64,000 nt of DNA from Bradyrhizobium betae. Lineage in GTDB: Bacteria > Pseudomonadota > Alphaproteobacteria > Rhizobiales > Xanthobacteraceae. The notes under the pieces are model-generated. The model saw nothing but the letters and a program-made list of their open reading frames with translations. It made no database searches and was not told the origin of the DNA. Positions 11,622 through 64,000 of the stretch are shown here, piece by piece (within the stretch, counting starts at the first letter, position 1; the number at the start of each line of letters is the position of its first letter). The stretch is taken from NCBI RefSeq assembly GCF_008932115.1, contig NZ_CP044544.1:186001-250000 (forward strand). The letters run 5' to 3'. The translations under genes and the position numbers were made by a program.

Positions 11622-13067
11622 ATGGACGCCCGGAATCTGACGATCATCCAGGTCAACGACACCCATGGCTACCTGGAGGCTCACCCCGAACTGATGTGGC
11701 ATGGCGATACCGCCGCATATCCCATCATGGGAGGTTACGCGCGTATCGCGTCTATCTTAAAGGGCGCTCGGGCAGAGGGCCATGGATCGGTTCTTGCCTT
11801 GGACAACGGCGATACGTTCCACGGGACGTATCCTGTAGTGAGCAGCAAAGGTGCTGCACTCGTCCCGCTGGTCAATGCGTTGGGGTTCGATGCCATGACT
11901 GCGCATTGGGAGTTTGCATGGGGACCGCGCCATTGGCGCGCATTGTCTGCCCAGCTGAATCACCCGATGCTTGCGATCAATTGCTACGATGTAGAAACCG
12001 GCGAATTGTACTTTCCGGCATCGATTGTAATCGAACGAGGTGGCCTTCGCGTCGGCATAATCGGCATCGCCGCGACCATCATTGACAAGAGTATGCCGCC
12101 CTACTTCAGCGAGGGAGTGCGCTTTACGTCAGGGTGCGAAGAATTGCCCGCCGAAATCAGTCGCTTGCGCAACGACGAGGGCGCAGAACTGATTGTTGTC
12201 CTTTCCCACCTTGGCCTCCCGCAGGATATCCGCGTTGCTCATGTGGTGAAAGACATTGACGTGATCGTGAGCGGTCATACCCACAACCGTCTCGAACAGC
12301 CGGCCCGCATCGGAAATACGCTTATCATCCAGTCTGGGTGCCATGGATCATTCGTTGGTCGACTTGATCTGACTGTCGCGGATGGAAAAATTGCTGGTTG
12401 GCGACATCGCCTGATCCCTGTCGATCAGTCGATCGCAGACGATGCTGAGATGAGCGCGCGTATCGAAGGTGTGATGAAGCCGCATCGAGAGATGTTGAAT
12501 GAGGTCGTCGGGCAGACGGCCGTTGGCTTGCATCGGGACACTAATCTATATGCGCCGATGGACGATCTTCTACTCGCCGCGATAGCAACCGCTGGCGATA
12601 CGGATATCGCCTTTTCGAACGGGTGGCGATACGGCGCACCGATACCGCCTGGCCTCATTACGATGAATGATTTGTGGAACATCATCCCCACCAATCCACC
12701 GGTGTCGACGGTCGATCTGACGGGTACCGAGATTCAGGAAATGATGGAGAAAAACCTTGAGCGAACGTTTTCAGCGGATCCCTTCGGACAGATGGGAGGA
12801 TACCTCAAGCGATTTCGGGGGCTGACCATTTACGGCAAGCTGGAAAATCCGCCAGGTCAGCGGATCGAGCATATCTTCAGGCGAGGCGCGCCTGTCCTCG
12901 CTGGCGAGACCTATAGAGCGGCGTTCGTAACGGCGCAGGGCGTACCAAAGCAGTTCGGGCGCAATCGCAGGGACCTTCCCGTTCGGGCAATCCAGGCTCT
13001 CGTCGCTTACCTAAAAGAAAGCAAGGCCGGCACAAAAGAGGGAATCGGGCGTTTTATAGCTGCGTAA
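11622..13067 (+). CDS. SoxB-like metallophosphatase-fold hydrolase without signal peptide (copy 1)
   Basis: A 481-residue two-domain protein of the 5'-nucleotidase/SoxB superfamily. Metal-site motifs are NDTHG (residues 12-16), DNGDTFHG (61-68), a histidine motif TAHWEF (93-98) and SGHTHN. TAHWEF resembles the GHWEF of SoxB more than the GNHEF of nucleotidases. The C-terminal part has NGWRYGAPIPPG and DPFGQMGGYLKRFRG, matching the WRWG and QMGG motifs of SoxB. Unlike SoxB it has no Tat or Sec signal. It heads a set with TsdB- and TsdA-like genes, repeated at 61648. It may hydrolyse a sulfur-oxyacid conjugate, but a nucleotidase role is not excluded. Confidence 0.75.
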   Translation: MDARNLTIIQVNDTHGYLEAHPELMWHGDTAAYPIMGGYARIASILKGARAEGHGSVLALDNGDTFHGTYPVVSSKGAALVPLVNALGFDAMTAHWEFAWGPRHWRALSAQLNHPMLAINCYDVETGELYFPASIVIERGGLRVGIIGIAATIIDKSMPPYFSEGVRFTSGCEELPAEISRLRNDEGAELIVVLSHLGLPQDIRVAHVVKDIDVIVSGHTHNRLEQPARIGNTLIIQSGCHGSFVGRLDLTVADGKIAGWRHRLIPVDQSIADDAEMSARIEGVMKPHREMLNEVVGQTAVGLHRDTNLYAPMDDLLLAAIATAGDTDIAFSNGWRYGAPIPPGLITMNDLWNIIPTNPPVSTVDLTGTEIQEMMEKNLERTFSADPFGQMGGYLKRFRGLTIYGKLENPPGQRIEHIFRRGAPVLAGETYRAAFVTAQGVPKQFGRNRRDLPVRAIQALVAYLKESKAGTKEGIGRFIAA

Positions 13068-13103
13068 GGATGCCGTCTGCAAAGTTGATTCCAGATTATT
13101 TCA

Positions 13104-13919
13104 GTGCATGATCGCCTGCATGAGCAGGGCAAAACAACAACGGCCCGATACTACGGAGGAAGTAGCTTGCTTGGCACACCCTGGGTTGAGATGCATTTCC
13201 CGCATGCGTTGGACGGGCGCCAGGTTGCCGAAAAAGCGATCGTGCTGCCGGTGGTGATTGTCTGCATCACACTGCTCTTCCTGGCGCTACTGTACTCTGG
13301 TCCGGCGCGGGCATTCGACGGCAAGAATATCGCCGCGAATGGCAATGGCCGCGATGCGCCTGCGTGCTCCGCTTGCCATGGCGAGCAAGGAGAAGGCCGG
13401 CCCGACGCCGCATATCCGAGGTTAGCGGGTCTGGACAGCCAGTATCTTGTTCAACAACTCAATGCATTTGCGGAAGGGAAGCGCGACAATGAAACGATGC
13501 ATCCGATCGCAAAGGCGCTTACGCCGGACGAACGTCAGGCCGTCGCGAATTTTTATGCCGGACTCACAACGGCGGTGGTAGCGGAGCCGAAAAAGGCTGA
13601 CGACAAGGCAATTGCGATTGGCGCTGCTTTAGCGAGCCGCGGCGACTGGTCGAAGGGACTGCCGGGGTGCGGCCAATGTCACGGCGCTATGGGACAGGGT
13701 GTCGGCAAGACATTCCCGAAACTGGCGGGTCAATCGTCCGAATATATAACGAGCCAATTGAAGGCGTGGAAAGACGGAACGCGAACGAGCGATCCTTTGC
13801 ATCTTATGACAGGGATCGCCAGCAAGTTGGATGATAAGCAGGTTGCCGCCGTCGCAGCCTACTATGCAACTTTGCCGGCTGCTAAACCGTCAACAACGCC
13901 GCAAGGATCGAAGCTATGA
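13104..13919 (+). CDS. tsdB: Diheme c4-type cytochrome, TsdB-like (copy 1)
   Basis: Two heme-attachment sites, CSACH and CGQCH, each begin a cytochrome c domain. The repeated pattern YPRLAGLDSQYLVQQL and FPKLAGQSSEYITSQL is typical of cytochrome c4. A hydrophobic leader (about VLPVVIVCITLLFLALLYSG) precedes the mature part. The true start is uncertain; ATG 13191 (MHFPHALDG) is a good alternative to 13104. It overlaps tsdA by 4 bases. TsdB accepts electrons from TsdA and passes them toward the terminal oxidase. Confidence 0.85.
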   Translation: MHDRLHEQGKTTTARYYGGSSLLGTPWVEMHFPHALDGRQVAEKAIVLPVVIVCITLLFLALLYSGPARAFDGKNIAANGNGRDAPACSACHGEQGEGRPDAAYPRLAGLDSQYLVQQLNAFAEGKRDNETMHPIAKALTPDERQAVANFYAGLTTAVVAEPKKADDKAIAIGAALASRGDWSKGLPGCGQCHGAMGQGVGKTFPKLAGQSSEYITSQLKAWKDGTRTSDPLHLMTGIASKLDDKQVAAVAAYYATLPAAKPSTTPQGSKL

Positions 13920-14914
13920 GCGGGCATAAGCCAGATAAAGCCGCGTGGGCCGCAGGCATACTGTTCGTGGGGCTGGCGGGGTTCATCGGCTATACGCTGC
14001 CCAGAAACAGCGATACGCCCAAGAAAACTGAACCTGCGGTGGTGCAGGCAGCCAAGCCCGTCGCAAGCAGCGTCGCACAAAAACACGAAAGTCAAAAAGT
14101 GGTGTTCAAGCCGCCAGGCGAAGATGAAATTCCAAAAAATGAATTCGGCGACATGGTTCGGCTGGGCGAAAAGATTTTTCACGATACGCAAAGCAACGCA
14201 AAAGAATTCGTCGGCAACTCATTGCAGTGCTCAAACTGTCATCTTGATGCGGGGCGCCTAGCCAATGCCGCCCCACTCTGGGCGGCCTACGTGGCGTTTC
14301 CGACCTATCGTGCGAAGAATGGACATGTGAACACGTTCCAGGAGCGCATGCAGGGCTGCTTCATGTACAGCATGAACGGAAAGGCTCCCGCCTTGAATGA
14401 CAAGGTCTTGGTCGCATTGGAAAGCTACGCGTATTATCTTGCCAAGGGGGCACCAATCGGTGCGGAATTGCCTGGAAGAGGTTATCCTAAATTGGCTAAA
14501 CCCGCGAAGCTCGATTACGCACACGGGCAGCAGGTCTATGCGGAAAAATGTGCGCTCTGCCACGGCGCCGATGGTCAAGGGCAGAACGCGACGGACGGTT
14601 CGGTTGTTTTTCCGCCGCTGTGGGGCGCCAAGTCTTTCAACTGGGGCGCCGGCATGAGTTCAATCACCAACGCCGCTGGATTCGTCAAAGCGAATATGCC
14701 GTTCAGTCAGGGTAATACCCTCACCGATGAAGAGGCATGGGACGTCGCGTCTTACATCGATAGTCAGGAACGTCCTCAAGACCCCCGCTTCAAAGGTTCG
14801 GTCGCTGAGACTCGGAAGCAACATCACGATTCGCCGATGGATATGTACGGACAAACCGTCAACGGCATTGTTCTCGGGCAGAATTCGGTGCCTTCCGGAC
14901 CCGCTAAGAATTGA
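13916..14914 (+). CDS. tsdA: Thiosulfate dehydrogenase TsdA (copy 1)
   Basis: A 332-residue diheme enzyme that joins two thiosulfates to tetrathionate. An N-terminal anchor (WAAGILFVGLAGFIGYTL, residues 11-28) holds it at the membrane. The first heme site CSNCHLDAGR is at 105-114, followed by YRAKNGHVNTFQERMQGCFMYSMNG, in which Cys148 corresponds to the Cys ligand of the active-site heme. The second site CALCHGADGQG is at 212-222. It overlaps the diheme cytochrome gene upstream. Presence of both hallmarks makes the assignment firm at family level. Confidence 0.9.
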   Translation: MSGHKPDKAAWAAGILFVGLAGFIGYTLPRNSDTPKKTEPAVVQAAKPVASSVAQKHESQKVVFKPPGEDEIPKNEFGDMVRLGEKIFHDTQSNAKEFVGNSLQCSNCHLDAGRLANAAPLWAAYVAFPTYRAKNGHVNTFQERMQGCFMYSMNGKAPALNDKVLVALESYAYYLAKGAPIGAELPGRGYPKLAKPAKLDYAHGQQVYAEKCALCHGADGQGQNATDGSVVFPPLWGAKSFNWGAGMSSITNAAGFVKANMPFSQGNTLTDEEAWDVASYIDSQERPQDPRFKGSVAETRKQHHDSPMDMYGQTVNGIVLGQNSVPSGPAKN

Positions 14915-14977
14915 TCTGTATGGCGGCTATTATGCGCGAGGCTGCCAATTCGGTATCCAAGCCCGTTTCCGCGCCTC

Positions 14978-15856
14978 CTAGGCACGTAAGGAGGCAATGA
15001 ATGCCTTCTCCGCCTGACTCGCATATCGCTCTTTATGCCGTAACCAGAAAAACGACCGCCGCGGTAAATCAATCTCAACGCGGTGAAGCGTCCCGGCGGT
15101 AACCGAAGCTCTCACAACCAGGTCTGAAATTGCGGTGGCGCAGTCGCCGGCTTCAACCGCGGCGCGTACGGCTTCATTGGACGGAAGTTCTAGCGCGAGT
15201 CGAAGATCGGATAGCTTGATTTTGAATTTCCGAAGCGCTGTTTCGAACATCGATCTCGTGCCGGAGCCGGACTCTCGCAATACCCAATCGGCTGCCAAAA
15301 GGTCTTTCGGTGCAATTTTTGTTCGACCAACCCATGGATGTTTCGTTCCAACGACCACGATGAGCGAATCTCCATCCATTTTGCTGATAGTAAGGGAGGC
15401 ATCGTCGACTTCACCTTCCACAAACCCAAGATCTGCGTAACCCTGATGGACGGCACGTGCGACCTGCTCTGTATTTGCAATCGTCATGTTGAGATTAATA
15501 CCAGGATAAGACATGTGAAAAGTCTGGATGCGCGGCGGTAGCCAATAGTTTGCAACAGTCTGGCTGGCTGCGATGGCCAACGCGCCACGTTTGAGCCCGG
15601 CTAGGTCATTCAGTACCTGCGCTGCTGTTTTGGCTCGCGCCACGACAGCGCGGGCTTCGTCGAGGAAGTCGCGCCCGGTCTGCGTTAACACGATGCCTCG
15701 GCCGATACGGTCGAACAACTTGATACCATAACGCGATTCGAGCGCCGCGATCGCGGCGCTCGTTGCTGATTGGGTCAGGTTCAATTCGCTCGCTGCCTGT
15801 GTGACATGTTGCTTTTCCGCAACCGCGATGAAGATACGAAGCTGTTCCAGCGTCAT
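14978..15856 (-). CDS. LysR-family transcriptional regulator
   Basis: A 292-residue LysR protein: N-terminal winged helix (MTLEQLRIFIAVAEKQHVTQAASELNLTQ) and an effector domain starting about residue 90. It begins 7 bases after the yeiH-type gene on the same strand, so the two are probably cotranscribed. It resembles the YeiE/CysB/CbbR group, of which YeiE is linked to sulfite in enterobacteria. Regulation of the exporter and possibly of the convergent tsd genes is an inference. Confidence 0.88.
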   Translation of the reverse strand: MTLEQLRIFIAVAEKQHVTQAASELNLTQSATSAAIAALESRYGIKLFDRIGRGIVLTQTGRDFLDEARAVVARAKTAAQVLNDLAGLKRGALAIAASQTVANYWLPPRIQTFHMSYPGINLNMTIANTEQVARAVHQGYADLGFVEGEVDDASLTISKMDGDSLIVVVGTKHPWVGRTKIAPKDLLAADWVLRESGSGTRSMFETALRKFKIKLSDLRLALELPSNEAVRAAVEAGDCATAISDLVVRASVTAGTLHRVEIDLPRRSFFWLRHKERYASQAEKAFIASLRA

Positions 15857-15862
15857 GAACCG

Positions 15863-18359: not shown

Positions 18360-18425
18360 GACAAAGCCTCTCGCCCGTCTTCTCCAGCCGGGATGAGGCG
18401 TTCATCCCAGCCAGAGTTATGAAGC

Positions 18426-24351: not shown

Positions 24352-24428
24352 GCAAAAAACTTTGGAATAAATTGGGCCAGTGATGCGTTTCATCTCCTTG
24401 GCGGGAATATGTCCCCTGGGAGAGACTA

Positions 24429-25640
24429 ATGATGAACCGAAGGACCGCCCTCAAGGGCGGAGCGGCTTTGCTGGCCGGAAGCGGCATGATCGGTGGATCG
24501 TCGCTCGCAAGCTTCGCAGCCGAAACTGTGACGCTGCCGTTCGAGAATGGCGAGCGGCCGCTCGTCAAATATCCTCAGAAGCGCACGATGATCGGCCTCA
24601 CCAGCCGGCCGCCCCAGCTTGAAACACCGTTTTCCGTGTTCAATGAAAATATCATCACGCCGAACGACGCGTTCTTCGTGCGGTACCACCTGGCCGATGT
24701 GCCGCTGGATATCGATCCCGACAAATTTTCCGTCGATATCAAGGGCAAGATCGACAAGCCAATGAAGCTGTCGCTTGCCGACATCAAAAAAATGCCGGCG
24801 ATGGAATTGATTGCGGTCAATCAATGCTCCGGCAACAGCCGCGGGTTTTTCAACCCGCGCGTCGCCGGTGGTCAGCTTGGTAATGGGGCCATGGGCAATG
24901 CGCGCTGGAAAGGCGTACCGCTCAAGACGGTGCTCGACAAGGCCGGTGTCCAGTCAGGCGCCAAGCAAGTCGTGTTCGGCGGCATGGATGGGCCTGTGAG
25001 CGACAAGACCCCGGACTTTGCCAAGGCGCTCGAGATTGACCATGCCCGCGACGGCGAGGTGATGCTGGCCTATGCCATGAACGGCCAGGATTTGCCTGTA
25101 CTAAATGGATTTCCGCTGCGGCTGATCGTGCCGGGATACTACGGCACCTATTGGGTCAAGCACCTCAACGAAATTAACGTCGTCGATAACGTGTTCGACG
25201 GCTTCTGGATGAAGACCGCTTATCGCATCCCCGATACCGACTGCGGTTGTGTCGAGCCTGGCACGGCGCCGAAGGCGACGATCCCCATCAACAAGTTCAC
25301 GGTGCGATCGTTCATCACGAATGTCGCCGATGGAGCCAAGGTAAAAGCTGGCGCGGAAACGCCGCTGAAGGGTATCGCGTTCGACGGCGGCACGGGCATC
25401 AAGATGGTGGAAGTCTCGATCGACGGAGGCAAGACATGGACAACGGGAACGCTGGACAAGGACCTTGGCAAATACTCATTCCGCGAATGGCGGTTGCCGG
25501 TGAAATTGGCCGCAGGAGCGCATGAGTTAAAGGTTCGTGCAACCAGCAACGACGGCAAGACGCAACCGATGGAAGCGCTCTGGAATCCAGCGGGCTATCT
25601 GCGCAACGTGGTCGAGACCGTCCGCGTCACGGCGGCTTGA
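24429..25640 (+). CDS. sorA: Periplasmic sulfite dehydrogenase molybdenum subunit SorA
   Basis: A 403-residue molybdopterin enzyme of the sulfite oxidase family, oxidising sulfite to sulfate. A Tat signal (NRRTALKGGAALLAGSGM) precedes the mature chain. The molybdenum-ligating Cys133 lies in NQCSGNSRGFF. The dimerisation domain ends with VSIDGGKTWTTG and WNPAGY, as in the family. The start may be ATG 24432. It overlaps the sorB region and completes oxidation of sulfite released by neighbouring pathways. Confidence 0.93.
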   Translation: MMNRRTALKGGAALLAGSGMIGGSSLASFAAETVTLPFENGERPLVKYPQKRTMIGLTSRPPQLETPFSVFNENIITPNDAFFVRYHLADVPLDIDPDKFSVDIKGKIDKPMKLSLADIKKMPAMELIAVNQCSGNSRGFFNPRVAGGQLGNGAMGNARWKGVPLKTVLDKAGVQSGAKQVVFGGMDGPVSDKTPDFAKALEIDHARDGEVMLAYAMNGQDLPVLNGFPLRLIVPGYYGTYWVKHLNEINVVDNVFDGFWMKTAYRIPDTDCGCVEPGTAPKATIPINKFTVRSFITNVADGAKVKAGAETPLKGIAFDGGTGIKMVEVSIDGGKTWTTGTLDKDLGKYSFREWRLPVKLAAGAHELKVRATSNDGKTQPMEALWNPAGYLRNVVETVRVTAA

Positions 25641-25651: not shown

Positions 25652-25975
25652 ATGAAGCGATTAGCACTCACGTTCGCAGGCGTCGTTGCACTCGCCGTTG
25701 CCGGTTCCGGTCTTGCTGTGGTCAGCGCCAAGCCCGTATCTTACAAGCTTCCCGATGAGACTGCGGCGTTTAAGCCTGGTCCCAACCTAGAAGTTGTCCA
25801 GAACAACTGCACGGCCTGCCACTCCGCTGACTACGTTAAGACCCAACCGCAGGGTCCAAAGTTCAAGAAGGATTTTTGGCAGGCGGAGGTGACAAAAATG
25901 ATAAAGGTCTACGGCGCGCCGATTGAAGATGCCGACGTTGGCAAAATCGTGGACTATCTCGCCGCGACTTATTGA
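25652..25975 (+). CDS. sorB: Sulfite dehydrogenase monoheme cytochrome subunit SorB
   Basis: About 107 residues with a signal peptide (through SAKPV) and one heme site CTACH in NNCTACHSADYVKTQPQGP. An axial Met is probable in VTKMIKVYGAPI. I chose ATG 25652 because GAGG lies about 10 bases before it. SorB takes electrons from SorA and passes them to cytochrome c. It directly follows sorA. Confidence 0.9.
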   Translation: MKRLALTFAGVVALAVAGSGLAVVSAKPVSYKLPDETAAFKPGPNLEVVQNNCTACHSADYVKTQPQGPKFKKDFWQAEVTKMIKVYGAPIEDADVGKIVDYLAATY

Positions 25976-26955
25976 TGAGCGGCGCAGTTGCCGCGGCGTG
26001 CCGATCGGCAACGGAACGCAGGAGGCGGCGTCAGTCGGGCTCGCGATGGCGGCGGCGCCTGGCGGCCGTCGCCACAATTCTAGCGCTGGCAGTTCCGCTC
26101 AAAGCCTTCGCCGCGTGTTCCGCACCTGTCGCTGTTCAGGTTCTCGGCTCGGGCGGCCCGGACTCAAACGACGCCCGGGCGAGTTCAGGGTATCTGTTGT
26201 GGGTGGATGGCGAAGCGCGGCTTCTGGTCGATGCTGGGGGAGGCGTTTTCCTGCGTTTCGGCGAGGCCAAAGCAAAGTTCGAGTCGCTCGATGCCATCGC
26301 CATCACGCATCTGCATGCCGATCACGTCTCCGACCTTCCGGCACTGCTCAAGAGCGGCTTTTTCGGTGAGCGGCAGCGCCCGTTACCGATCGTCGGCCCC
26401 AGCGGCGGCAGTGCATTTCCCGGCATGAAGGAATTTATGCGCGCGCTGTTCGATCCAAAACGAGGGGCGTTCCGATATCTGTCGGGTTATCTCGACGGGA
26501 GCGGAGGGATGGTTCGCGCTGATATCATCGAAATGAATGCCGCCGCGGCGACGCCAAAAGCTGCCTTTGGAAACGACCGGTTCAAATTGACGGCCATCGG
26601 CGTCAAACATGGCCCGGTCCCCGCACTTGGTTATTTGGTCGAGGTCCGCGGTCGCCGCATTGCCTTCGCCGGTGACCAGAATGGCGACAATTCCGCTTTC
26701 GCCGCCATGATCAAGGGTGCAGACATCCTCGTAATGGATCACGCTGTGCCAGAAATGGCGGACCCGGTTTCGCGTCAGTTGCATGCGAGGCCGAGTGAAA
26801 TCGGATTACTCGCCGCCAAGAGCGGCGTGGCTCAACTCGTATTGTCGCACAACATGGCGCGCAGCCTTGGCCCGCTACAGGAAAATCTTGCCATCATACG
26901 ACAACATTACGATGGACCTACCAAAGTCGCCGAAGATTTGATGTGCTTCGATTGA
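25972..26955 (+). CDS. Exported MBL-fold metallo-hydrolase
   Basis: A 327-residue protein with a basic N-terminus and hydrophobic leader (AAVATILALAVPLKAFAACS), then an MBL-fold domain of the RNase Z/arylsulfatase-like type. Metal motifs are THLHADHVSD, GVKHGPVPALGY, FAGDQNGDN and LVLSHNM. It overlaps the stop of sorB by 4 bases and is likely in the sor operon. A periplasmic sulfatase or sulfur-ester hydrolase is plausible; substrate unknown. Confidence 0.82.
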   Translation: MMSGAVAAACRSATERRRRRQSGSRWRRRLAAVATILALAVPLKAFAACSAPVAVQVLGSGGPDSNDARASSGYLLWVDGEARLLVDAGGGVFLRFGEAKAKFESLDAIAITHLHADHVSDLPALLKSGFFGERQRPLPIVGPSGGSAFPGMKEFMRALFDPKRGAFRYLSGYLDGSGGMVRADIIEMNAAAATPKAAFGNDRFKLTAIGVKHGPVPALGYLVEVRGRRIAFAGDQNGDNSAFAAMIKGADILVMDHAVPEMADPVSRQLHARPSEIGLLAAKSGVAQLVLSHNMARSLGPLQENLAIIRQHYDGPTKVAEDLMCFD

Positions 26956-55517: not shown

Positions 55518-57020
55518 TCAGATTGTGCGAAACTGTCCCATCATGCCGTTGTCCTCGTGCTCCAGGATATGACAGTGATACATGAATGGCGCTATTTCGG
55601 CAGGCTGATTGAAATGCACGAGCAATTCCACCGGCGCTCTAATGACTACAGTGTCACGAGTACCGGCGTCGCGAAGAATCGGCTTGCCGCCGTTGCGACT
55701 AAGGACCTCGAACTGCACTCCGTGAATATGGAAGGGGTGGGACATCATCTCTCCCGATACTTCCCAGATTTCAGTATCACCCAGCCGGACTTTTTCGTCG
55801 ATGCGGTTCATATCGAACGGACGGCCGTTGATGACCATGCCGCCACCCGAGTCCGTCCCTCCGCCCATCATACCCCCCATGCCCATTCCACCCATCCCCA
55901 TATTCAGAACAAATCGGCGTCGTGTGTTGGCTTTCGACGGATCCGCACGCGGCCGTTCCACAAGGCGCTCTGGAATCTTGCTAGGCGCGCCATGGCCTCC
56001 AACGGGGTCAAACTGCAAAACTGTCTCGCCCTGACCGCCAAGAATTTCCTTCGCGAAATTGCGTGCTTTTGCCAGCGGTCCCGTCATCATCGGCATGTTG
56101 GTGTCCGGAGCCGTCTTGAGGGACACGGCTTGGCCATTCGAAAAGTCCACCAACACCTCGGCGCGCTCGCCCGGCGCAAGTGTGAGCGAGCTGACGCTGA
56201 TGGGGCGATCGAGAAGACCGCCCTCGCTTGCGATCCAGTGAAACGTTCGATTGTCGCTGAACGAAAGGTCATAGATTCTGGCATTAGACCCATTTACGAG
56301 CCGCAGACGCACCAATCGATTTGGAACACGCGCCGTGGCGTTCGGGGTGCCATTGGACAAGATGGTATTGCCACGACGTCCCTGCATCATCGTCATCATT
56401 CCTTGCGGGACCACCATTAGCCCGTCCGCGAACTGCCTGTCTTGAATGACCACGGGAAGGTCATCGACACCGTACTCAGAGGGTAAAGCAAGAGCCCGCT
56501 CGGCCTCATCGGTAACAAGCAGCAAGCCTGCCAGCCCGGAATACACCTGCACTCCAGTCCGCCCGTGAACGTGGGAATGATAGAACAGCGTGGCGGCTGG
56601 CTGGCGAATAGGCAGCGCCGGACGCCAAACGTTACCAGCGGTGATGATCCGGTGGGGTCCGCCATCGAGTTCGGCTGGAATGAGAAGGCCGTGCCAATGA
56701 ACCGTGGTGTCTTCGTTCAGCGTGTTGGTCACGGCAATCTCAACGTCGTCCCCCTGATAGACACGGATTGAAGGACCAAGGTAGCTCCCACTGTACCCGA
56801 GACTAGCGCTCGCTCGTCCCGGAAAGAATTCAGTCGTGCCCGCTTGCACGTGTAGCGCAACCGCGTTGCCTTCTTTCCGCGCGTCAATAAGTGGAGGCAT
56901 CCGCAGGGGCTGCCGTTCCGCTGCCGCATCCGCCGCGGTCCAATCGGCATAATAGGACGTGAAGGCGCCTGCGCCGATAACCCCAGCACCGGCAAGAAAG
57001 GATCGGCGGTTGAATTTCAT
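55518..57020 (-). CDS. Multicopper oxidase (CueO-like)
   Basis: A 500-residue exported protein (NRRSFLAGAGVIGAGAF, Tat-type signal) with three cupredoxin domains. Copper ligands: HWHGLLIP, HSHVHG, HPFHIHGVQFE and HCHILEHEDNGMM. A Met-rich loop MGMGGMGMGGMM near residues 383-395 resembles the substrate-binding loop of copper oxidases. It probably oxidises cuprous ion. It is divergent from the BigR-type repressor gene with an AT-rich operator between them. Confidence 0.92.
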   Translation of the reverse strand: MKFNRRSFLAGAGVIGAGAFTSYYADWTAADAAAERQPLRMPPLIDARKEGNAVALHVQAGTTEFFPGRASASLGYSGSYLGPSIRVYQGDDVEIAVTNTLNEDTTVHWHGLLIPAELDGGPHRIITAGNVWRPALPIRQPAATLFYHSHVHGRTGVQVYSGLAGLLLVTDEAERALALPSEYGVDDLPVVIQDRQFADGLMVVPQGMMTMMQGRRGNTILSNGTPNATARVPNRLVRLRLVNGSNARIYDLSFSDNRTFHWIASEGGLLDRPISVSSLTLAPGERAEVLVDFSNGQAVSLKTAPDTNMPMMTGPLAKARNFAKEILGGQGETVLQFDPVGGHGAPSKIPERLVERPRADPSKANTRRRFVLNMGMGGMGMGGMMGGGTDSGGGMVINGRPFDMNRIDEKVRLGDTEIWEVSGEMMSHPFHIHGVQFEVLSRNGGKPILRDAGTRDTVVIRAPVELLVHFNQPAEIAPFMYHCHILEHEDNGMMGQFRTI

Positions 57021-57094
57021 CGGTACGCCTGCGGTTCAATGGATGTCATTCGAACGCCTACGTGCTGATGAGAAACAGATATGGCGGCCGAAAA

Positions 57095-57110
57095 ATTAGC
57101 AATATCTAAT
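57095..57110. promoter_or_regulatory. Operator-like dyad (site 1) between oxidase and BigR-type gene
   Basis: ATTAG-CAATAT-CTAAT: inverted ATTAG arms with a 6-base centre, 75 bases before the multicopper oxidase start. A second site with identical arms and spacing lies at 57296-57311 immediately before the repressor. Confidence 0.6.
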
Positions 57111-57295
57111 ATTATATCAGAACCCTGGGCTCAATCGCGGGAGAAGAACCCAACGGTCATCCGAGATATCGACCGGGCGTCCCTTTGCGGCTAACGCGCA
57201 TTTAAGGCCTGTTTCGGCCACCTTCCGTGACGCGAATAGAGTATCCGGACTGGCATCTGCACGAGGCCTCTTGAATTAATATCATAACACACTAA

Positions 57296-57311
57296 ATTAG
57301 CAACTACTAAT
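57296..57311. promoter_or_regulatory. Operator-like dyad (site 2) before the BigR-type gene
   Basis: ATTAG-CAACTA-CTAAT has the same arms and spacing as site 1. It lies 18 bases before the start of the persulfide-sensing repressor. The repetition and AT-richness are what is expected for binding sites of BigR-type proteins. Confidence 0.65.
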
Positions 57312-57328
57312 GCAATGCAAGTGACATA

Positions 57329-57664
57329 GTGACGACTATGCTGAATCTCGCGGACTTTGAGAAAAGCGCCATGGAAGTGGCGGGCATTCTCCGTGCGCTC
57401 GCGAACGAGCGTCGGTTGATGATTCTTTGCCAGCTGGTCGAATACGGCGAAGCGACCGTGGGTTCCCTCGTCGATGCAGTCGGCATTAGCCAATCCGCGC
57501 TGTCTCAACATCTTGCGAAAATGCGCGACGAGGGAATCGTCACGTTTCGACGAGATTCCCACACGGTTTGGTACCGAATCGCGGACGGGCGGATTGAAGA
57601 GCTTTTTGCGACGCTTCATCGGCTGTTTTGTAAGCCGGTCAGAAAATCAGGAAAACACAAATGA
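57329..57664 (+). CDS. ArsR-family repressor of the BigR/SqrR type
   Basis: A 111-residue winged-helix protein; recognition helix QSALSQHLAKMRDEG near residues 55-69. The dithiol pair is Cys34 (MILCQL) and Cys101 (RLFCKP), 67 residues apart, nearly the same as in SqrR/BigR. It heads an operon of a rhodanese, TauE and MBL-rhodanese, overlapping the next start by 4 bases. Start ATG or GTG near 57329, downstream of the dyad site 2. Confidence 0.88.
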   Translation: MTTMLNLADFEKSAMEVAGILRALANERRLMILCQLVEYGEATVGSLVDAVGISQSALSQHLAKMRDEGIVTFRRDSHTVWYRIADGRIEELFATLHRLFCKPVRKSGKHK

Positions 57665-58182
57665 CCACACATCATGATCCACAGGAAGCATTGCGCTTGA
57701 TCAATGAAGAGGGGGCCTTGCTCATCGACGTGCGCGAACCGGACGAACATGCGCGCGAGCGTATCCCAAATGCCAAGCTTGTTCCATTGTCCCGCCTTAC
57801 CGTTCCGCTGGATCGGCACGAGGCGCAGCTGCTGATCTTTCACTGCCGGTCAGGAAGCCGAACCGGTGCAGCGGCGGAAAAGCTCGCGGTCGCTGCCGGC
57901 GGCGACGCACACATTCTACGTGGCGGACTGAACGCCTGGAAAGCGGCCGGGCTGCCGGTTCTCAAGGATACCCGCCGGCCGATCGAAATAATGCGGCAGG
58001 TGCAGATCGCGGCAGGCAGTCTCGTGATTCTTGGCGTTGGTTTGGGCGCGCTGCTGCATCCGGGATTCTACGCCCTATCGGGATTCGTCGGCGCCGGTCT
58101 GGTCATCGCCGGGAGCACCGGCACCTGCGTTATGGCCCGAATTCTCGCGTTTGCTCCGTGGAATCGAATGGCTCAGGCGTAA
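57661..58182 (+). CDS. Rhodanese-domain membrane protein
   Basis: A 173-residue protein: a rhodanese domain with active-site Cys in FHCRSGSRTGAAAEKL near residue 62, then two membrane segments (VQIAAGSLVILGVGLGALL and GFVGAGLVIAGSTGTCVMA) of the DUF2892 type. It moves sulfane sulfur at the membrane, and in BigR regulons it hands persulfide to the dioxygenase. Overlaps the repressor by 4 bases. Confidence 0.88.
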   Translation: MTTHHDPQEALRLINEEGALLIDVREPDEHARERIPNAKLVPLSRLTVPLDRHEAQLLIFHCRSGSRTGAAAEKLAVAAGGDAHILRGGLNAWKAAGLPVLKDTRRPIEIMRQVQIAAGSLVILGVGLGALLHPGFYALSGFVGAGLVIAGSTGTCVMARILAFAPWNRMAQA

Positions 58183-58201
58183 CAGGGAGCGTTGCTGAGC
58201 C

Positions 58202-59002
58202 ATGATGGACTTTCCCGTCGGCATTTCGACAACGATTTCGGGCGGAATTGTTGGTCTGGTGCTCGGCCTTGTCGGGGGCGGCGGTTCTATCCTCGCAGTT
58301 CCTCTTCTGGTTTACGCTGTCGGGGTCACGTCGCCACATGTCGCTATCGGCACAAGTGCTATTGCGGTCTCACTGAGCGCACTCGGCAACGTGGTGAGCC
58401 ATGCCCGCGCCGGAAATGTGAAGTGGCGCTGTGCGGCCGTCTTTGCGTCAGCCGGCGTGTTCGGGGCGGTTGCGGGCTCTACGGTGGCCAAAGCGCTCGA
58501 TGGGCAGAAACTCCTGGTCCTGTTCGGCGCGCTGATGATCATCGTGGGAATCACCATGCTGCGCAGCCGCAGTACGGCGGGGAATCCGGAGGTGCGATTG
58601 TCGATGACAACGGCACGCGAGCTTTTACCGCTGCTGCTGGGCATCGGTTTTGCGGTCGGACTGTTGTCGGGTTTCTTCGGAATTGGAGGCGGTTTCCTGA
58701 TCGTGCCCGGCCTCATGCTTGCGACCGGGATGCCCCTGACGATGGCGATCGGCACCTCTCTCGTTGCCGTCGCAGCATTCGGGGCAGCAACTGCAGCGAG
58801 CTATGCAATCTCCGGAATGATCGACTGGCCGATTGCCAGCCTGTTCGTTCTCGGCGGCCTGGTTGGCGGCGTCGCCGGTGTGGCGTTCGGAAAAGCGCTC
58901 GCAGCAAGGAAGCGGTCACTCAATCTGACGTTCGCTGGCCTGGTTATTCTGGTCGGCCTCTACGTCGTCGCGCGCGGAACGGTGACGCTGTTCGCGGCTT
59001 GA
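58202..59002 (+). CDS. TauE/SafE-family sulfite exporter (intact copy)
   Basis: A 266-residue permease with about eight segments, motifs VLGLVGGGGSILAVPLLVYAVG and GFFGIGGGFLIVPGLML. It exports sulfite produced by persulfide oxidation. The intact gene gives the reference for the frameshift in the copy at 2872. It lies 19 bases after the rhodanese gene. Confidence 0.9.
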   Translation: MMDFPVGISTTISGGIVGLVLGLVGGGGSILAVPLLVYAVGVTSPHVAIGTSAIAVSLSALGNVVSHARAGNVKWRCAAVFASAGVFGAVAGSTVAKALDGQKLLVLFGALMIIVGITMLRSRSTAGNPEVRLSMTTARELLPLLLGIGFAVGLLSGFFGIGGGFLIVPGLMLATGMPLTMAIGTSLVAVAAFGAATAASYAISGMIDWPIASLFVLGGLVGGVAGVAFGKALAARKRSLNLTFAGLVILVGLYVVARGTVTLFAA

Positions 59003-59033
59003 ACATCTCTTATCTCCAGGAAAGGACGGTTGC

Positions 59034-60332
59034 ATGGTGAAGTCAGCGTTGCAGGGGCGTCCAATCGTCAAGGGGTTCTTCGACAAACGCACCTTCAGTG
59101 TGCAGTACGTTGTCGCGGATCCCGAGACCCGGCACTGCGCCATCATCGACCCTGTTCTCGATTTTGATGAAAAGTCCGGTTCAACAGCTACGTGGTCGAC
59201 CGATGAGCTACTCGATCATGTGCGGAACGAGGGCTACACGCTCGAATGGATTCTCGACACGCATCCGCATGCCGACCATTTCTCGGCAGCGGCCTATCTC
59301 AGGGGCAAAACGGGCGTCCAGACCGCGATCGGCGAAAAGGTCGTCGAAGTGCAGAAGCTCTGGAAAGAAATCTACAATTACTCCGACACCTTCCCGACCG
59401 ACGGCTCGCAATGGGACAAGCTGTTCGTCGACGGCGAGCGGTTCAAAATCGGCAGTTGTGATGTCGAGGTGATGTTTACGCCGGGGCATACGCTTGCCTC
59501 GATCGCCTACGGTGTCGGAGATGCAATCTTCGTTCATGACACCCTGTTCCAACCAGACTTCGGAACGGCACGCGCCGATTTTCCGGGTGGGGATGCGCAC
59601 GCACTTTGGAGAAGTATCCATAGGATTCTTGCGTTGCCAGAGGACACCAAGGTTTTCACCGGACACGACTACATGCCAGGCGGGCGCCAGCCCGCCTGGG
59701 AAAGTACGGTGGGACAGCAGAAATCCGAAAACATTCACCTTAGAGAGGCGAAGACCGAAGCTGAGTTCGTGGCGCTTCGGCAGACTCGTGACAAGAAACT
59801 GCCTATGCCGAAACTGATATTGCAATCCCTGCAAGTGAACATTCGAGGCGGTCGGCTGCCCGATCCAGAGTCGAACGGCCGGCGTTATCTCAAAATCCCC
59901 TTGGGGCGCTCGAAAGCGCGCCCTGGAATGAAGGAGACCTCCATGAACATTAAGAGCGCAAAAGAACTCGTCGCCGAGGCCACGGCGGAGGTCGAGACGC
60001 TTTCGGCGGACGCCGCCGTGAAACTGATGGACGACCCGAATGTGGTATTCGTCGATGTCCGGGAAACCAACGAGCGACGCAAGACTGGCGTTCTCAAGGG
60101 ATCGGTGCATGCCTCACGCGGATTCCTAGAATTCCATGCCGACCCCAACAGCCCAACCCATGTCAAGCCGTTGAGCAGCGGCAAGCGGCTGGTGCTCTAT
60201 TGTGCTTCCGGCAACCGATCAGCGCTGGCTGCGAAGACGCTCAAGAGCATCGGTATCGCCAACGTCTCGCATGTAGCCGGTGGATTCCCGGCGATGCAAA
60301 AGGCGGGCGGCGAAACCGAAAGCGCGGCGTGA
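59034..60332 (+). CDS. Persulfide-dioxygenase-like MBL protein fused to a rhodanese
   Basis: A 432-residue chain. The MBL domain (about 1-285) has THPHADHFSAA, TPGHTLASIAYG, FVHDTLFQPDFGTAR and TGHDYMPGGRQPA, as in persulfide dioxygenase-type Blh proteins. The rhodanese (from about 300) has VVFVDVRETNERRKTG and the active-site Cys in LYCASGNRSALA. A GAAGGAG ribosome site and ATG at 59943 (MNIKSAKELV) lie inside the linker, and the end of the MBL domain does not match the family. The two were probably separate genes joined by loss of a stop or a shift. Confidence 0.87.
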   Translation: MVKSALQGRPIVKGFFDKRTFSVQYVVADPETRHCAIIDPVLDFDEKSGSTATWSTDELLDHVRNEGYTLEWILDTHPHADHFSAAAYLRGKTGVQTAIGEKVVEVQKLWKEIYNYSDTFPTDGSQWDKLFVDGERFKIGSCDVEVMFTPGHTLASIAYGVGDAIFVHDTLFQPDFGTARADFPGGDAHALWRSIHRILALPEDTKVFTGHDYMPGGRQPAWESTVGQQKSENIHLREAKTEAEFVALRQTRDKKLPMPKLILQSLQVNIRGGRLPDPESNGRRYLKIPLGRSKARPGMKETSMNIKSAKELVAEATAEVETLSADAAVKLMDDPNVVFVDVRETNERRKTGVLKGSVHASRGFLEFHADPNSPTHVKPLSSGKRLVLYCASGNRSALAAKTLKSIGIANVSHVAGGFPAMQKAGGETESAA

Positions 60333-60380
60333 GTCGGATCGTGACGTACTAGTGCAATCTAAACAGAAGGACCCAAGACA

Positions 60381-60500
60381 ATGATGGACGGTACAGGCGG
60401 AGGAATGATGTTTGGCATGGGCCTCACATGGATTGTCGTCATCGTGGTGCTGGTGTTGGCAGGTGCAGCGCTCGCCAAGTACCTGTCCTCTGGCCGATAA
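60381..60500 (+). CDS. Small membrane protein, 39 residues
   Basis: A gene too short for most annotations: MMDGTGGGMMFGMGLTWIVV continues through a single hydrophobic helix (IVVIVVLVLAGAALAKYL) to LSSGR. A Met/Gly-rich start followed by one helix resembles small proteins found beside copper genes. AGAAGGACCC precedes ATG 60381; ATG 60384 is an alternative. Function unknown. Confidence 0.6.
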   Translation: MMDGTGGGMMFGMGLTWIVVIVVLVLAGAALAKYLSSGR

Positions 60501-60552
60501 ACGAGAGCGTTAATTGGCGTGCGCCTGGGCCGTTCATCTCAAAGATTGAAGA

Positions 60553-61038
60553 GTGACATTTATTGCGCAATTACAGCGGTTCTCGAAAACAAACTCAAGC
60601 TTCTCGGACCTCATTTTTCGCGGTTGCCTCAGCCTCATTTTCATCGTTGGCGGGCTCGGACATTTCGTGGAGCATCGTCAGATGCTTGAGCGGATAGCTG
60701 AATCGCCGTGGGCAAATACAATCAACACGATCGGCAATCCATCTGTTTTGCTCTGGGTTTCCGGAGCTATTTTCGTTCCGGCCGGGGTCGCGCTTGCTAT
60801 CGGTTTTATGACCCGGCTGTCGTCCGTCGCGCTTTTCATGACTCTGGTGCCGATTACGATTACGCTGCACGTGGCTCCCGGCCACGCCGGGCCGTTGTTC
60901 AAGAATATAGCTATCCTTGGCGCGTTGATTCATTTCGCCTTTAACGGATCGGGTGCGATTGCAATCGACCGCGCGTTAGCTTTAGCCGTTGAACCTACTG
61001 TGGACGGGAGTGCTACGAATCGTGCGAAGGCGAGCTAG
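60553..61038 (+). CDS. DoxX-family membrane protein
   Basis: A 161-residue protein from GTG 60553, with four segments: LIFRGCLSLIFIVGGLGHFVEH, VLLWVSGAIFVPAGVALAIGF, SSVALFMTLVPITI and LFKNIAILGALIHFAFNGSG. DoxX members include subunits of thiosulfate:quinone oxidoreductase (DoxD/DoxA). In this sulfur-oxidation neighbourhood a link to thiosulfate oxidation is possible but not shown. Confidence 0.8.
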   Translation: MTFIAQLQRFSKTNSSFSDLIFRGCLSLIFIVGGLGHFVEHRQMLERIAESPWANTINTIGNPSVLLWVSGAIFVPAGVALAIGFMTRLSSVALFMTLVPITITLHVAPGHAGPLFKNIAILGALIHFAFNGSGAIAIDRALALAVEPTVDGSATNRAKAS

Positions 61039-61051
61039 GAAATAGCTCTCG

Positions 61052-61074
61052 GTCGCGGCTGGAGTCACCGCGAC
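61052..61074 (+). terminator. Hairpin after the DoxX gene
   Basis: GTCGCGG and CCGCGAC form a 7-bp stem with a 9-base loop, 14 bases after the stop. There is no T-run. It may end or stabilise the DoxX transcript. Confidence 0.4.
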
Positions 61075-61226
61075 GGCCGGTGCTGCTGCCGCCGACTGAA
61101 CGCGGCTAGTGGTAGGCGTGCTGTCGTTCGACCCGAGCCATTCGCGATGTCAGTGAACCTTAGCTGTCGAACGGCGTTAACAGCGAAGCTAACCCCGCAT
61201 ATTTTACCGCGCCTGGAGAAACGCTC

Positions 61227-61637
61227 ATGAGCTACCATTTTTCTAAGACTGTCGATTTGCCGATGGAAGCCGCCGTTTCTGCGACTACCGAAGCCTTGAA
61301 GAAACATGGTTTTGGTGTGCTCACCGAGATTGATGTGCAGCAAACATTAAAGAAGAAGCTGGATGTGGACTTTCATCCTTACCGTATCCTGGGCGCTTGC
61401 AACCCAAAAATGGCGTACCAAGCGCTCCAGGCTGAGGATAAAATCGGCACCATGCTTCCTTGCAATGTTGTCCTGCAAGAGCGTGATTCGGGTCGTACTG
61501 AAATTTCAGCTGTGGATCCGGTAGCGTCTATGCAAGCAATCGAGAACCCCAAGCTCGCTGGAATTGCAGCAAGCGTCCGCGCTGCGCTGCAGGAAGTAAT
61601 TGCAGACATTGGAGCCAAGCAAGCTCCGCCAGCGTAG
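61227..61637 (+). CDS. Cytoplasmic DUF302 protein (copy 2)
   Basis: A 136-residue protein without signal peptide. The DUF302 core reads MEAAVSATTEALKKHGFGVLTEIDVQQTLKKKL, YRILGACNPKMAYQALQAEDKIGTMLPCNVVLQE. It lies 10 bases before the SoxB-like gene, which has no room for its own promoter, so they are cotranscribed. A role related to sulfur oxidation is inferred from this coupling. Confidence 0.88.
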   Translation: MSYHFSKTVDLPMEAAVSATTEALKKHGFGVLTEIDVQQTLKKKLDVDFHPYRILGACNPKMAYQALQAEDKIGTMLPCNVVLQERDSGRTEISAVDPVASMQAIENPKLAGIAASVRAALQEVIADIGAKQAPPA

Positions 61638-61647
61638 CGGAGGTCGA

Positions 61648-63096
61648 ATGACACAATCCTGCAATCTGACAGTTATTCAGATCAACGACACACATGGCTA
61701 CCTGGAACCCCATCCAGAGCTTGTCTGGAGCGGAAGCAAAGCGTCTTACCCCACGCTCGGAGGATACGCGCGAATCGCTTCGCTGTTAAATTCCGCGCGT
61801 CGTGAAAATCCTGGCAATGTCTTGGTTCTCGACAATGGTGATACGTTTCATGGGACATACCCCGCCGCCGTAAGTCGCGGTGAAGCTTTGATCCCGCTCG
61901 TCAACGCGCTGAAACTCGACGCTATGACGGCGCATTGGGAGTTTGCCTGGGGCCCCGCGCACTTCCGCAAGGTGGTCGATCGGCTTGACCACCCGATGCT
62001 CGCCATCAACTGCTACGACAAGGCGACCGGTGATCGAGCTTTTCCCGCATCCGTGGCTCTCGAGTGCGCCGGACTGCGCGTCGGCGTGATCGGAATCGCA
62101 GCTACAATCCTTGACAAAAGCATGCCGCCACATTTCAGCGAGGGCCTCCGCTTCACCTTGGGTCTAGATGAGCTACCTGCAGAGATCAATCGGCTAAAGT
62201 GCGCCGAGAGAGTCGACCTGATTGTCGTATTGTCGCATTTGGGTTTTCCTCAAGATGTCAAACTCGCGGCCTCCGTTAAGGGCATCGACATCCTCGTCAG
62301 CGGTCACACGCACAACCGGCTCGAACGCCCCGCCCGGATCGGGAACACACTCATCATTCAGTCCGGTTGCCATGGATCCTTTGTTGGACGGCTGGACCTG
62401 AACGTAACCGACGGAAGGATTTCTGATGTACAGCATCAGCTTATTTCCGTCAGCGATGCTATAGAGCCGGACCCGGTGATGCAGCGCCTTGTTGACGAAG
62501 TAATGAGTCCCCATCGCGCCATGTTGGCAGAGATTGTCGGCAATACACCTATCGGATTGCACCGCGACACGATCCTTTCCGCGTCGATGGACGATGTGCT
62601 CCTTGCGGCCGCTGCGAAAGCCGGGGAAACGGATATCGCATTTTCAAATGGTTGGCGATATGGTGCACCGGTCCCACCAGGCCCGGTTACCATGAACGAT
62701 CTCTGGAATATCATTCCGAGCAATCCGCCGATCTCGACCGTAGACCTTACCGGCGTGGAAATCCAAGAGATGATGGAGGAGAGCCTAGAGCGGACATTTT
62801 CAGCCGATCCTTTCGGGCAGATGGGCGGCTACCTCAAGCGCTTCAGGGGATTGACCATCTACGGCAAGCTTGAAAATCCTCCGGGCCATCGAATCGAGCA
62901 CATCTTTACGGCAGACGCGGCCCTAGCGGCGGACCACAGCTACAAAGCAGCCTTCGTGACCGCCCAAGGTGTGCCTCAGAAATTTGGTCGGAATCGGCAA
63001 GACTTGCCGGTCAAGGCGATCAATGCACTACAAGACTATTTTCGGAGGCAATCAACTCATCCGAACGAGGGTCTGGGGCGGTTTATTCCTGTGTGA
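61648..63096 (+). CDS. SoxB-like metallophosphatase-fold hydrolase without signal peptide (copy 2)
   Basis: A 482-residue paralogue of the gene at 11622, matching along its whole length: NDTHGYLEPHPELVWSG, DNGDTFHGTYPA, TAHWEFAWGP, SGHTHNRLERP, NGWRYGAPVPPG and GQMGGYLKRFRG. It starts at ATG 61648 (AGGAGG-like ribosome site at 61639), only 10 bases after the DUF302 stop. No signal peptide is possible. It precedes a TsdB-like and a TsdA gene, as in copy 1. Cellular location and reaction are unknown. Confidence 0.76.
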   Translation: MTQSCNLTVIQINDTHGYLEPHPELVWSGSKASYPTLGGYARIASLLNSARRENPGNVLVLDNGDTFHGTYPAAVSRGEALIPLVNALKLDAMTAHWEFAWGPAHFRKVVDRLDHPMLAINCYDKATGDRAFPASVALECAGLRVGVIGIAATILDKSMPPHFSEGLRFTLGLDELPAEINRLKCAERVDLIVVLSHLGFPQDVKLAASVKGIDILVSGHTHNRLERPARIGNTLIIQSGCHGSFVGRLDLNVTDGRISDVQHQLISVSDAIEPDPVMQRLVDEVMSPHRAMLAEIVGNTPIGLHRDTILSASMDDVLLAAAAKAGETDIAFSNGWRYGAPVPPGPVTMNDLWNIIPSNPPISTVDLTGVEIQEMMEESLERTFSADPFGQMGGYLKRFRGLTIYGKLENPPGHRIEHIFTADAALAADHSYKAAFVTAQGVPQKFGRNRQDLPVKAINALQDYFRRQSTHPNEGLGRFIPV

Positions 63097-63126
63097 TGAA
63101 ATCGCAGGACTTACGGGACATACATT

Positions 63127-63906
63127 TTGGCATTCCAGTCGCTACCACCATCCGGGGATCAAAGGGCAGCGGAATGCGCGGAAGCTCCCGAGAACTTGCC
63201 TGCTCGGTCGACGACGTCTGTCAACCTTCTCGCGCTAGTCTCGGCTGGCTGTTTCATGATCTTGCTGGCAAGACTGTTCATCGCGACCGCGATTGCGGCG
63301 GACGGCAGCGGCATAGCAGCGAATGGCAACGATAAGGGGGCGCCTGCCTGTTCCGCCTGCCATGGCAATCAAGGCGAGGGGCGGCTCGATGCCGCTTATC
63401 CGAGGCTTGCCGGACTTGATAGCGGATATCTTCTGCGCCAGCTCAACGATTTTGCCGACAGAAAACGCGAAAGTGAAACCATGCACCCCATCGCCAAGGC
63501 GCTTGGCGCGGACGAGCGCGGAGCGGTGGCGTCCTTTTACGGCGCATTGTCGGCCCCCAAAGTGCAGGAGCCGAAAAAGCCGGATGACAAGACCCTCGCC
63601 ATAGGTGCTGCTCTCGCGCTGCGAGGAGATTGGTCCAAGGGCTTGCCGGGCTGTGGGCAATGTCACGGCCGGGCCGGACAAGGTGTTGGTGATTCGTTTC
63701 CGAAGCTGGCCGCCCAATCCGCCGAATATATCGTAAAAGAGCTGAAAGCGTGGAAGGAAGGAAAGCGCGGCAACGATCCGTTGAATTTGATGACGGGGAT
63801 CGCGAGCAAGCTCGATGAAGCGCAGATGGCCGCGGTCGGCGCATACTATGCCAGCCTGCCAGTAGTCGCTTCGGCATCTGCAGGGCAGAAAGGAACGAAG
63901 CCATGA
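63127..63906 (+). CDS. tsdB: Diheme c4-type cytochrome, TsdB-like (copy 2)
   Basis: About 259 residues with heme sites CSACH and CGQCH and the c4-type repeats YPRLAGLDSGYLLRQL and FPKLAAQSAEYIVKEL. The leader is LLALVSAGCFMILLARLFIATAIAAD. The upstream ATG 63127 gives a polar extension without family similarity, so an internal start near TTG 63193 (LPARSTTSV) is likely. It overlaps the following tsdA start by 4 bases. Confidence 0.85.
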   Translation: MAFQSLPPSGDQRAAECAEAPENLPARSTTSVNLLALVSAGCFMILLARLFIATAIAADGSGIAANGNDKGAPACSACHGNQGEGRLDAAYPRLAGLDSGYLLRQLNDFADRKRESETMHPIAKALGADERGAVASFYGALSAPKVQEPKKPDDKTLAIGAALALRGDWSKGLPGCGQCHGRAGQGVGDSFPKLAAQSAEYIVKELKAWKEGKRGNDPLNLMTGIASKLDEAQMAAVGAYYASLPVVASASAGQKGTKP

Positions 63907-64000
63907 GCGAAAGCCGACCCAACCCGCAAACCTGGGCAGCGGGCTTGCTCTTTCTCGGGCTGGCCGGATTTGTCGGCTATTCGCTTCCGCGGCCAGAAAA
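63903..64000 (+). CDS. tsdA: Thiosulfate dehydrogenase TsdA (copy 2), cut by window end
   Basis: The first 32 codons are present: MSESRPNPQTWAAGLLFLGL then AGFVGYSLPRPE. This matches the N-terminal anchor of the copy at 13916 (WAAGILFVGLAGFIGYTLPR), including its 4-base overlap with the diheme cytochrome gene. The heme domains lie beyond the window. Confidence 0.8.
   Translation, partial: MSESRPNPQTWAAGLLFLGLAGFVGYSLPRPE

Follow-up and report, generated by a model that had tools for sequence, protein, structure and literature searches.

A 64,000-nucleotide window of a Bradyrhizobium betae plasmid (positions 186001–250000 of contig C2, NZ_CP044544.1; the host genome consists of two contigs, 7.42 Mb) carries two genes for SoxB-like hydrolases. 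The order SoxB-like gene, diheme c cytochrome gene and gene for the thiosulfate dehydrogenase TsdA was present twice, at 11622–14914 and again from 61648, running past the window end, as described in an earlier reading made from the letters alone (the sequence-only reading). The two hydrolases belonged to a clade without an export signal, for which the label cSoxB was coined in this analysis. The clade is real and widespread, a variant of the SoxB family that has been little described. It is probably a cytoplasmic branch of the SoxB-type sulfohydrolases that frees sulfate from a carrier-bound thiosulfonate or from a polythionate (probability about 0.6). The observed basis is the absence of an export signal, the SoxB-type active-site residues, the frequent cytoplasmic sulfur neighbors and the absence of a gene link to SoxYZ.

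Family identity and N-terminus of cSoxB

Copy 1 (11622–13067, 481 amino acids) and copy 2 (61648–63096, 482 amino acids) were 71% identical in a pairwise comparison. On the SoxB model TIGR04486 they scored 326.3 and 322.3 bits, below the cut-off of 550. The HWEF, WRYG and QMGG motifs named in the sequence-only reading were found in both copies. For the tree, 132 proteins were reduced to 88 by removing near-copies (>78% identity), a truncated nucleotidase (nucl_L173) and a fragment (cSoxB_L097). cSoxB formed a clade separate from true SoxB and from the 5′-nucleotidases. The two-domain metallophosphatase and 5_nucleotid_C fold of the 5′-nucleotidases was present in cSoxB. The Asn-His pair (GNHEF) of UshA/CD73-type 5′-nucleotidases, which has a metal/catalytic role, was replaced by His-Trp, as in SoxB (column count without two Asn-Trp Bacillota rows, nucl_L164, L176 and L180). 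The nucleotidase G-G-x-R stretch of the C-terminal domain was replaced by W-R-x-G.

The claim that both enzymes lack an export signal was upheld. Copy 1 had no in-frame start codon upstream, and only 9 bases of open frame precede the ATG, leaving no room for a signal. For copy 2, the only possible upstream start was a TTG at 61600, which gives 16 mostly polar residues and no signal. Fewer than 25 residues separated the first strand from the preceding stop in 37 of 50 non-redundant cSoxB proteins, compared with 0/14 true SoxB and 1/19 nucleotidases. A hydrophobic stretch upstream of the first strand was found in 3/50 cSoxB, 12/14 true SoxB and 18/19 nucleotidases. These counts used alignment positions and a lowered hydrophobicity threshold; the strict-threshold test gave no separation (1/12 SoxB and 0/88 cSoxB), and the motif could not be placed in 6 SoxB and 15 nucleotidase rows. 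cSoxB proteins of archaea and Bacillota were also signal-less. Judged from these N-termini, the absence of an export signal is common to the whole cSoxB family, and the predicted location of cSoxB is the cytoplasm.

Gene neighborhood and distribution of cSoxB

Open frames around 89 cSoxB, 18 true SoxB and 19 nucleotidase loci were compared with reference proteins. Most of these were taken from annotated plasmid loci of cSoxB, the others from genome loci of cSoxB and from a true Sox cluster. The SoxB controls comprised 15 chosen SoxB matches, the host's two and one Paracoccus cluster. The nucleotidase controls were 19 chosen matches, none over the cut-off of that family. The neighbor statistics left out loci with <60% of flank, and also plasmid loci L009–L017, because many reference proteins came from them. 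Some references derive from loci kept in the count (L026, L029, L034, L037, L066 and L077), and reference-choice bias affects the neighbor statistics.

No SoxY, SoxZ, SoxA or SoxX was found within 8 kb of the 89 cSoxB loci, some of which had short flanks. In true SoxB loci, such a gene lay within 8 kb in 17 of 18. The exception was the plasmid's own true SoxB (C2:20496–22187; 830 bits, over the family cut-off), around which a scan of C2:1–40000 gave no match to any of the four. The scan of the window gave no SoxY or SoxZ match either, in agreement with the sequence-only reading. However, the host chromosome (C1) had three SoxY-like and three SoxZ-like loci, with one SoxY and two SoxZ over the cut-offs, and all matches were chromosomal. 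A window without soxYZ therefore does not imply a cell without soxYZ. Among 50 cSoxB genomes drawn from 77 loci (genome completeness not stated), 36 had no SoxY match; the 14 with a match were all Pseudomonadota by record title. Together with the signal-less clade, these counts supported the proposal that such a SoxB relative may act on something other than SoxYZ.

A TsdA match was found in 16 of the 50 genomes. The other 34, including all three Methanoculleus tested, had no TsdA match at E 1e-20. Of 80 cSoxB loci, 19 had TsdA within 8 kb, 15 of them together with a c4 cytochrome. The exact order cSoxB–c4–TsdA occurred in six of the 80, from four genomes (Bradyrhizobium/Afipia-like or Hyphomicrobiales metagenome-assembled genomes) that were kin of this plasmid. 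Outside Alphaproteobacteria, TsdA was within 5 kb in 1/33 loci. The cSoxB–TsdA linkage is local, and the tetrathionate link suggested earlier was not supported for the family at large. The contrary case raised in the sequence-only reading, that homologues might be nucleotidases with no link to tsdA, was also borne out in part; most relatives had no tsdA, but their residues were of SoxB type, not nucleotidase type.

A core sulfur gene was present within 3 kb in 53/71 cSoxB loci and in 1/19 nucleotidase loci. After thinning, the cSoxB counts were 38/54 (≤90% identity) and 24/40 (≤78% identity). For Alphaproteobacteria alone, the counts within 5 kb were 17/22 and 12/17. Sulfur matches per kb fell with distance in 28 full-flank loci, from 0.46 (0–1 kb) to 0.21 (1–3 kb) and 0.04 (3–9 kb). 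No core sulfur gene was found within 5 kb in 8 of 33 non-alphaproteobacterial loci with flank. Within 3 kb of the 71 loci, persulfide dioxygenase was the commonest of four partners (25), followed by DsrE (19), TsdA (13) and YeeE (9), and no single partner was universal. In 40 loci thinned to 78% identity, the corresponding numbers were 17, 4, 6 and 6.

A DsrE frame lay directly downstream on the same strand in 17 loci (15 with Methanomicrobiales-type titles, Methanoperedens and Paludibacter). One Cys was kept in 18 of the 19 DsrE rows compared (19 rows, not 20, one of the two DsrE frames of L058 not being in the comparison). No DsrE was found within 8 kb at L053 and L075, which are of the same order as the Methanomicrobiales-type DsrE loci. 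YeeE-type genes were within 8 kb in 8/58 cSoxB loci with enough flank, and occurred at one Clostridia, one Firmicutes, one Verrucomicrobia, one Bryobacter and one Asgard-labelled locus.

Relatives were collected by a genome scan with two short peptide patterns, one with GWRYGA, so this motif was selected for, and the best 80 of 399 were kept. cSoxB was found in Pseudomonadota, Bacteroidota, Chloroflexi, Bacillota and methanogens. Hosts among the best 80 of 399 included Alphaproteobacteria, Polaromonas, Chloroflexi, Clostridia and Bacilli. Archaeal hosts included Methanoculleus and other Methanomicrobiales, Methanosarcina, Methanoperedens and one Asgard-labelled metagenome-assembled genome. Many cSoxB genomes are metagenome-assembled, and binning errors are possible. 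In the phylum of the window, 64 of 398 sampled genomes had a match at E 1e-60. Beyond the window's own two genes and a duplicated contig end described below, the listed matches read as true SoxB, recognized by match positions from about 30 and frames mostly >560, or as nucleotidases; one near-full-length match (G296) carried GNHEF. cSoxB is therefore patchy in this phylum. Besides that of Bradyrhizobium sp. SK17, eight plasmid records carried cSoxB, and a Runella plasmid record had an exported relative. The genes were labelled "5′-nucleotidase" or "SoxB" in the records.

Gene sets and plasmid context

The genes of both sets, those described directly upstream of each set and the half-transporters at 2004–2869 are on the forward strand. 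In the first set, copy 1 is followed by a diheme c4-type cytochrome (TsdB-like; 13104–13919) with two CxxCH motifs and Cytochrom_C and Cytochrome_CBB3 domains, and by a TsdA-like thiosulfate dehydrogenase (13916–14914). The latter was a diheme protein (two CxxCH) with the SoxA/TsdA cytochrome domain PF21342 (31.6 bits, cut-off 27), as expected of the TsdA family. This TsdA has a Cys within a GCFMYSMNGK stretch, a putative ligand of the catalytic heme. In the second set, the TsdB-like c4-type cytochrome (63127–63906) is also diheme, and TsdA is present by its start only (63903–64000), the remainder being the first 883 bases past the window end. The identities between sets were 64% for the cytochromes and 75% over 282 residues for TsdA. 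Cytochrome and tsdA genes overlap by 4 bases in both sets.

Upstream of the first set are a Tat-signal thiosulfate dehydrogenase (NCBIfam NF052225; 9520–10314; 417 bits, cut-off 300; SK17 annotation) and a stand-alone substrate-binding protein of the SBP_bac_11 family (10324–11325; 333 amino acids; PF13531, 177 bits). The start at 9520 follows the SK17 record; at its longest, the frame begins at 9448. The SBP_bac_11 family also adjoins cSoxB in Bosea vaviloviae, Sphingobium, Novosphingobium and Sulfitobacter (e.g., L011:9472–10254). Two YeeE/YedE-type half-transporters lie about 9 kb upstream of copy 1 (2004–2869, coordinates from the SK17 record), the first with a weak match to TsuA (NF052577; 28 of 400 bits). 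YeeE and TauE genes were observed at 1992–3640, and sulfite dehydrogenase-like and second persulfide-dioxygenase-like genes between the sets (24384–25637 and 25927–26952); the plasmid thus has several sulfur gene blocks.

The second set is preceded by genes for a rhodanese-domain protein (57661–58182) and a TauE/SafE-type exporter (58202–59002), both assigned from the SK17 annotation and our own comparison. A persulfide-dioxygenase-like protein with a metallo-beta-lactamase fold and a rhodanese domain follows (59034–60332; Lactamase_B, Rhodanese; NF040641 526 bits, under the cut-off of 625), then a DoxX-family membrane protein (60553–61038; PF07681) and a DUF302 protein (61227–61637; PF03625, 98 bits). 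The 10-base gap noted earlier between the DUF302 stop, ending at 61637, and the ATG of copy 2 at 61648 was confirmed. Two Cys of the DUF302 protein were kept in 8/8 cSoxB-linked copies compared, several of them close kin, and the protein is a candidate cytoplasmic carrier.

The first 22 kb of the window matched the plasmid of Bradyrhizobium sp. SK17 at 100%, and that plasmid was typed as conjugative (MOBP/MPF_T). Copy 1 matched the SK17 record (NZ_CP025114.1:179504–180945) in two pieces, over 1442 rather than 1443 bases, with no gene listed there. This is consistent with a frameshift, possibly a sequencing error. The ends of contig C2 repeat over 26.5 kb (C2:1–26458 and 242823–269307) with 99.66% identity, 91 gaps and 0 mismatches, and the duplicated end takes in window positions 56823–64000. 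C2 is probably a circular plasmid of about 243 kb that the assembly left unclosed and whose ends are error-prone. The duplicated genes and apparent pseudogenes there would then be assembly artefacts. A "third" SoxB-like copy (C2:4873–6223) and a broken true SoxB (C2:263359–265042) were rejected as duplicates from these ends, and the plasmid therefore counts two cSoxB and one true SoxB.

Possible role of cSoxB and comparison with known systems

In the proposed role, thiosulfate or sulfur derived from it would enter the cytoplasm, in some genomes via YeeE-type transporters. A cytoplasmic carrier, for which TusA/YeeD, DsrE and possibly DUF302 are candidates, would hold a Cys-S-S-SO3− adduct; a small polythionate is the alternative substrate. 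The predicted dinuclear metal site of cSoxB would hydrolyze the terminal sulfonate, with sulfate and a persulfide as the putative products. The persulfide may pass to persulfide dioxygenase or to sulfurtransferases, and sulfite may be exported by TauE or oxidized. On this plasmid, TsdA, the c4 cytochrome and the NF052225 enzyme would add a periplasmic step from thiosulfate to tetrathionate, taken here as a host-specific add-on and not as the core of the system. From their sequences these tetrathionate-forming enzymes look exported, and they would be linked to cSoxB only via import of tetrathionate or thiosulfate.

A more specific proposal is tentative. cSoxB might be a widespread cytoplasmic sulfohydrolase of bacteria and archaea, including methanogens, that releases sulfate from thiosulfonate adducts of cytoplasmic TusA/YeeD, DsrE and DUF302 carriers. 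It would be an intracellular counterpart of SoxB–SoxYZ without the Sox system and would supply a missing acceptor step after thiosulfate uptake. Once kin were thinned, YeeE and DsrE were no commoner than TsdA near cSoxB; this weighs against the proposal, and its probability was slightly lowered for that reason.

Three other explanations were considered. The window could be another instance of the published TsdA–SoxB pathway of Erythrobacter (Qipengyuania) flavus 21-3, for which it was proposed that TsdA makes tetrathionate and a SoxB-like enzyme cleaves it, yielding sulfate and zero-valent sulfur. In that strain, loss of tsdA or soxB nearly abolishes sulfur globule formation, and the induced cluster encodes three SoxB-domain proteins and a dioxygenase (PMC7608252). 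The adjacency of SoxB-like, c4 and tsdA genes in both sets and the TsdA matches in 16/50 cSoxB genomes are in line with this pathway. The 34 genomes without a TsdA match, three Methanoculleus among them, are not, and a cytoplasmic enzyme would need tetrathionate import, for which no importer was identified. The pathway is also reported to operate without SoxYZ, and the chromosome of this host has SoxY-like and SoxZ-like loci. This explanation is unlikely, though it deserves consideration.

A cytoplasmic nucleotidase or other phosphohydrolase that travels with sulfur islands fortuitously or has a house-cleaning function would account for the 5′-nucleotidase fold, for the nucleotidase-type names in plasmid records and for the cSoxB loci without sulfur neighbors, one Hymenobacter copy being near purine-degradation genes. 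Motifs, tree and neighborhood, by which this explanation was tested, place it low: both nucleotidase stretches are replaced, the Asn-His pair by the His-Trp of SoxB, and sulfur genes are locally enriched around cSoxB. It is highly improbable that cSoxB reaches the periplasm without a signal of its own, for instance by piggyback export with a Tat substrate, and acts there on SoxYZ of the host. The second gene upstream of copy 1 does encode a Tat-signal protein (NF052225), and chromosomal soxYZ is present, but 36/50 cSoxB genomes had no SoxY match, 0/89 loci had SoxY/Z/A/X neighbors, the archaeal and Bacillota proteins also have no signal, and the SoxB insert of about 40 residues, a putative SoxYZ contact, is missing.

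SoxB serves as a marker gene for periplasmic Sox thiosulfate oxidation. If cSoxB is a cytoplasmic sulfohydrolase as proposed, marker surveys miscount Sox, imported thiosulfate would have a further fate, and methanogens would encode part of a thiosulfate-cleaving route. cSoxB is a concrete enzyme for studying the resolution of cytoplasmic thiosulfonate adducts.

The idea of a TsdA–SoxB pathway without SoxYZ is already published for E. flavus 21-3 (PMC7608252). Deletion of two further SoxB-domain proteins left the sulfur globules of that strain unaffected (PMC7608252). Later work mentions two SoxB homologues (PMC12172448, PMC10267684) and the pathway in situ (PMC9426585). According to one of these four papers, sulfur builds up in the periplasm. 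The word start "cytoplasm" was absent from the text of all four, and "signal peptide" from the two checked. The listings of an open-access literature search gave no paper on a cytoplasmic or signal-less SoxB. Orphan SoxB has already been noticed: in a sediment survey, SoxB genes are reported from scaffolds that carry no further sox genes, with TsdA in some of the genomes (PMC12345210).

The plasmid resembles E. flavus 21-3 in that tsdA is clustered with SoxB-domain genes and a dioxygenase (PMC7608252, PMC9426585). Unlike in the E. flavus pathway, this host has chromosomal soxYZ, and most cSoxB genomes had no TsdA match. E. flavus SoxB (D0Y83_01365) was compared by its published description; no Erythrobacter or Qipengyuania name was found among the cSoxB matches listed (120 rows and a second listing, most rows nameless). 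In the YeeE/YeeD (TsuA/TsuB) thiosulfate uptake system, thiosulfate leaves -S-S2O3, persulfide and -S-SO3 on the YeeD Cys, and the acceptors of S or SO3 from YeeD were left to future study (PMC11073785). YeeE-type genes lie near some cSoxB genes, and SoxB has 0 occurrences in the main text of that paper. The authors exclude thiosulfate as substrate of Hyphomicrobium SoxT1A (PMC11582611), so not every YeeE relative may be assumed to be a thiosulfate importer.

Exported SoxB-like proteins of Bacteroidota (Pontibacter P0121 and Runella P0123) formed a sister branch to cSoxB in the tree, with two rows only. They share the cSoxB-type sulfur island with c-type cytochrome, YeeE and DsrE genes, and differ in an Asn-Trp motif and an N-terminal extension resembling an export signal. 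On Bacteroidota plasmids this sister group was observed at L012:4150–5802 and L018:7866–9542, with Asn-Trp and an apparent export signal; each island includes a DsrE gene and a c-type cytochrome, the latter TsdA-like in L012.

SoxB is active on trithionate, but the isolated enzyme gave no turnover of its SoxYZ substrates (PMC5336275). Unlike SoxB, cSoxB has neither an export signal nor SoxYZ neighbors, and about 40 residues that SoxB carries as an insert between DxH and GG are missing; it scores under the 550-bit cut-off and forms a separate clade. Like Thermus thermophilus SoxB (2WDC, 4UWQ), it shares the fold over 475 residues and the metal-site residues, and it keeps the His-Trp pair, Arg336, Arg397, Gln390 and Asp314.

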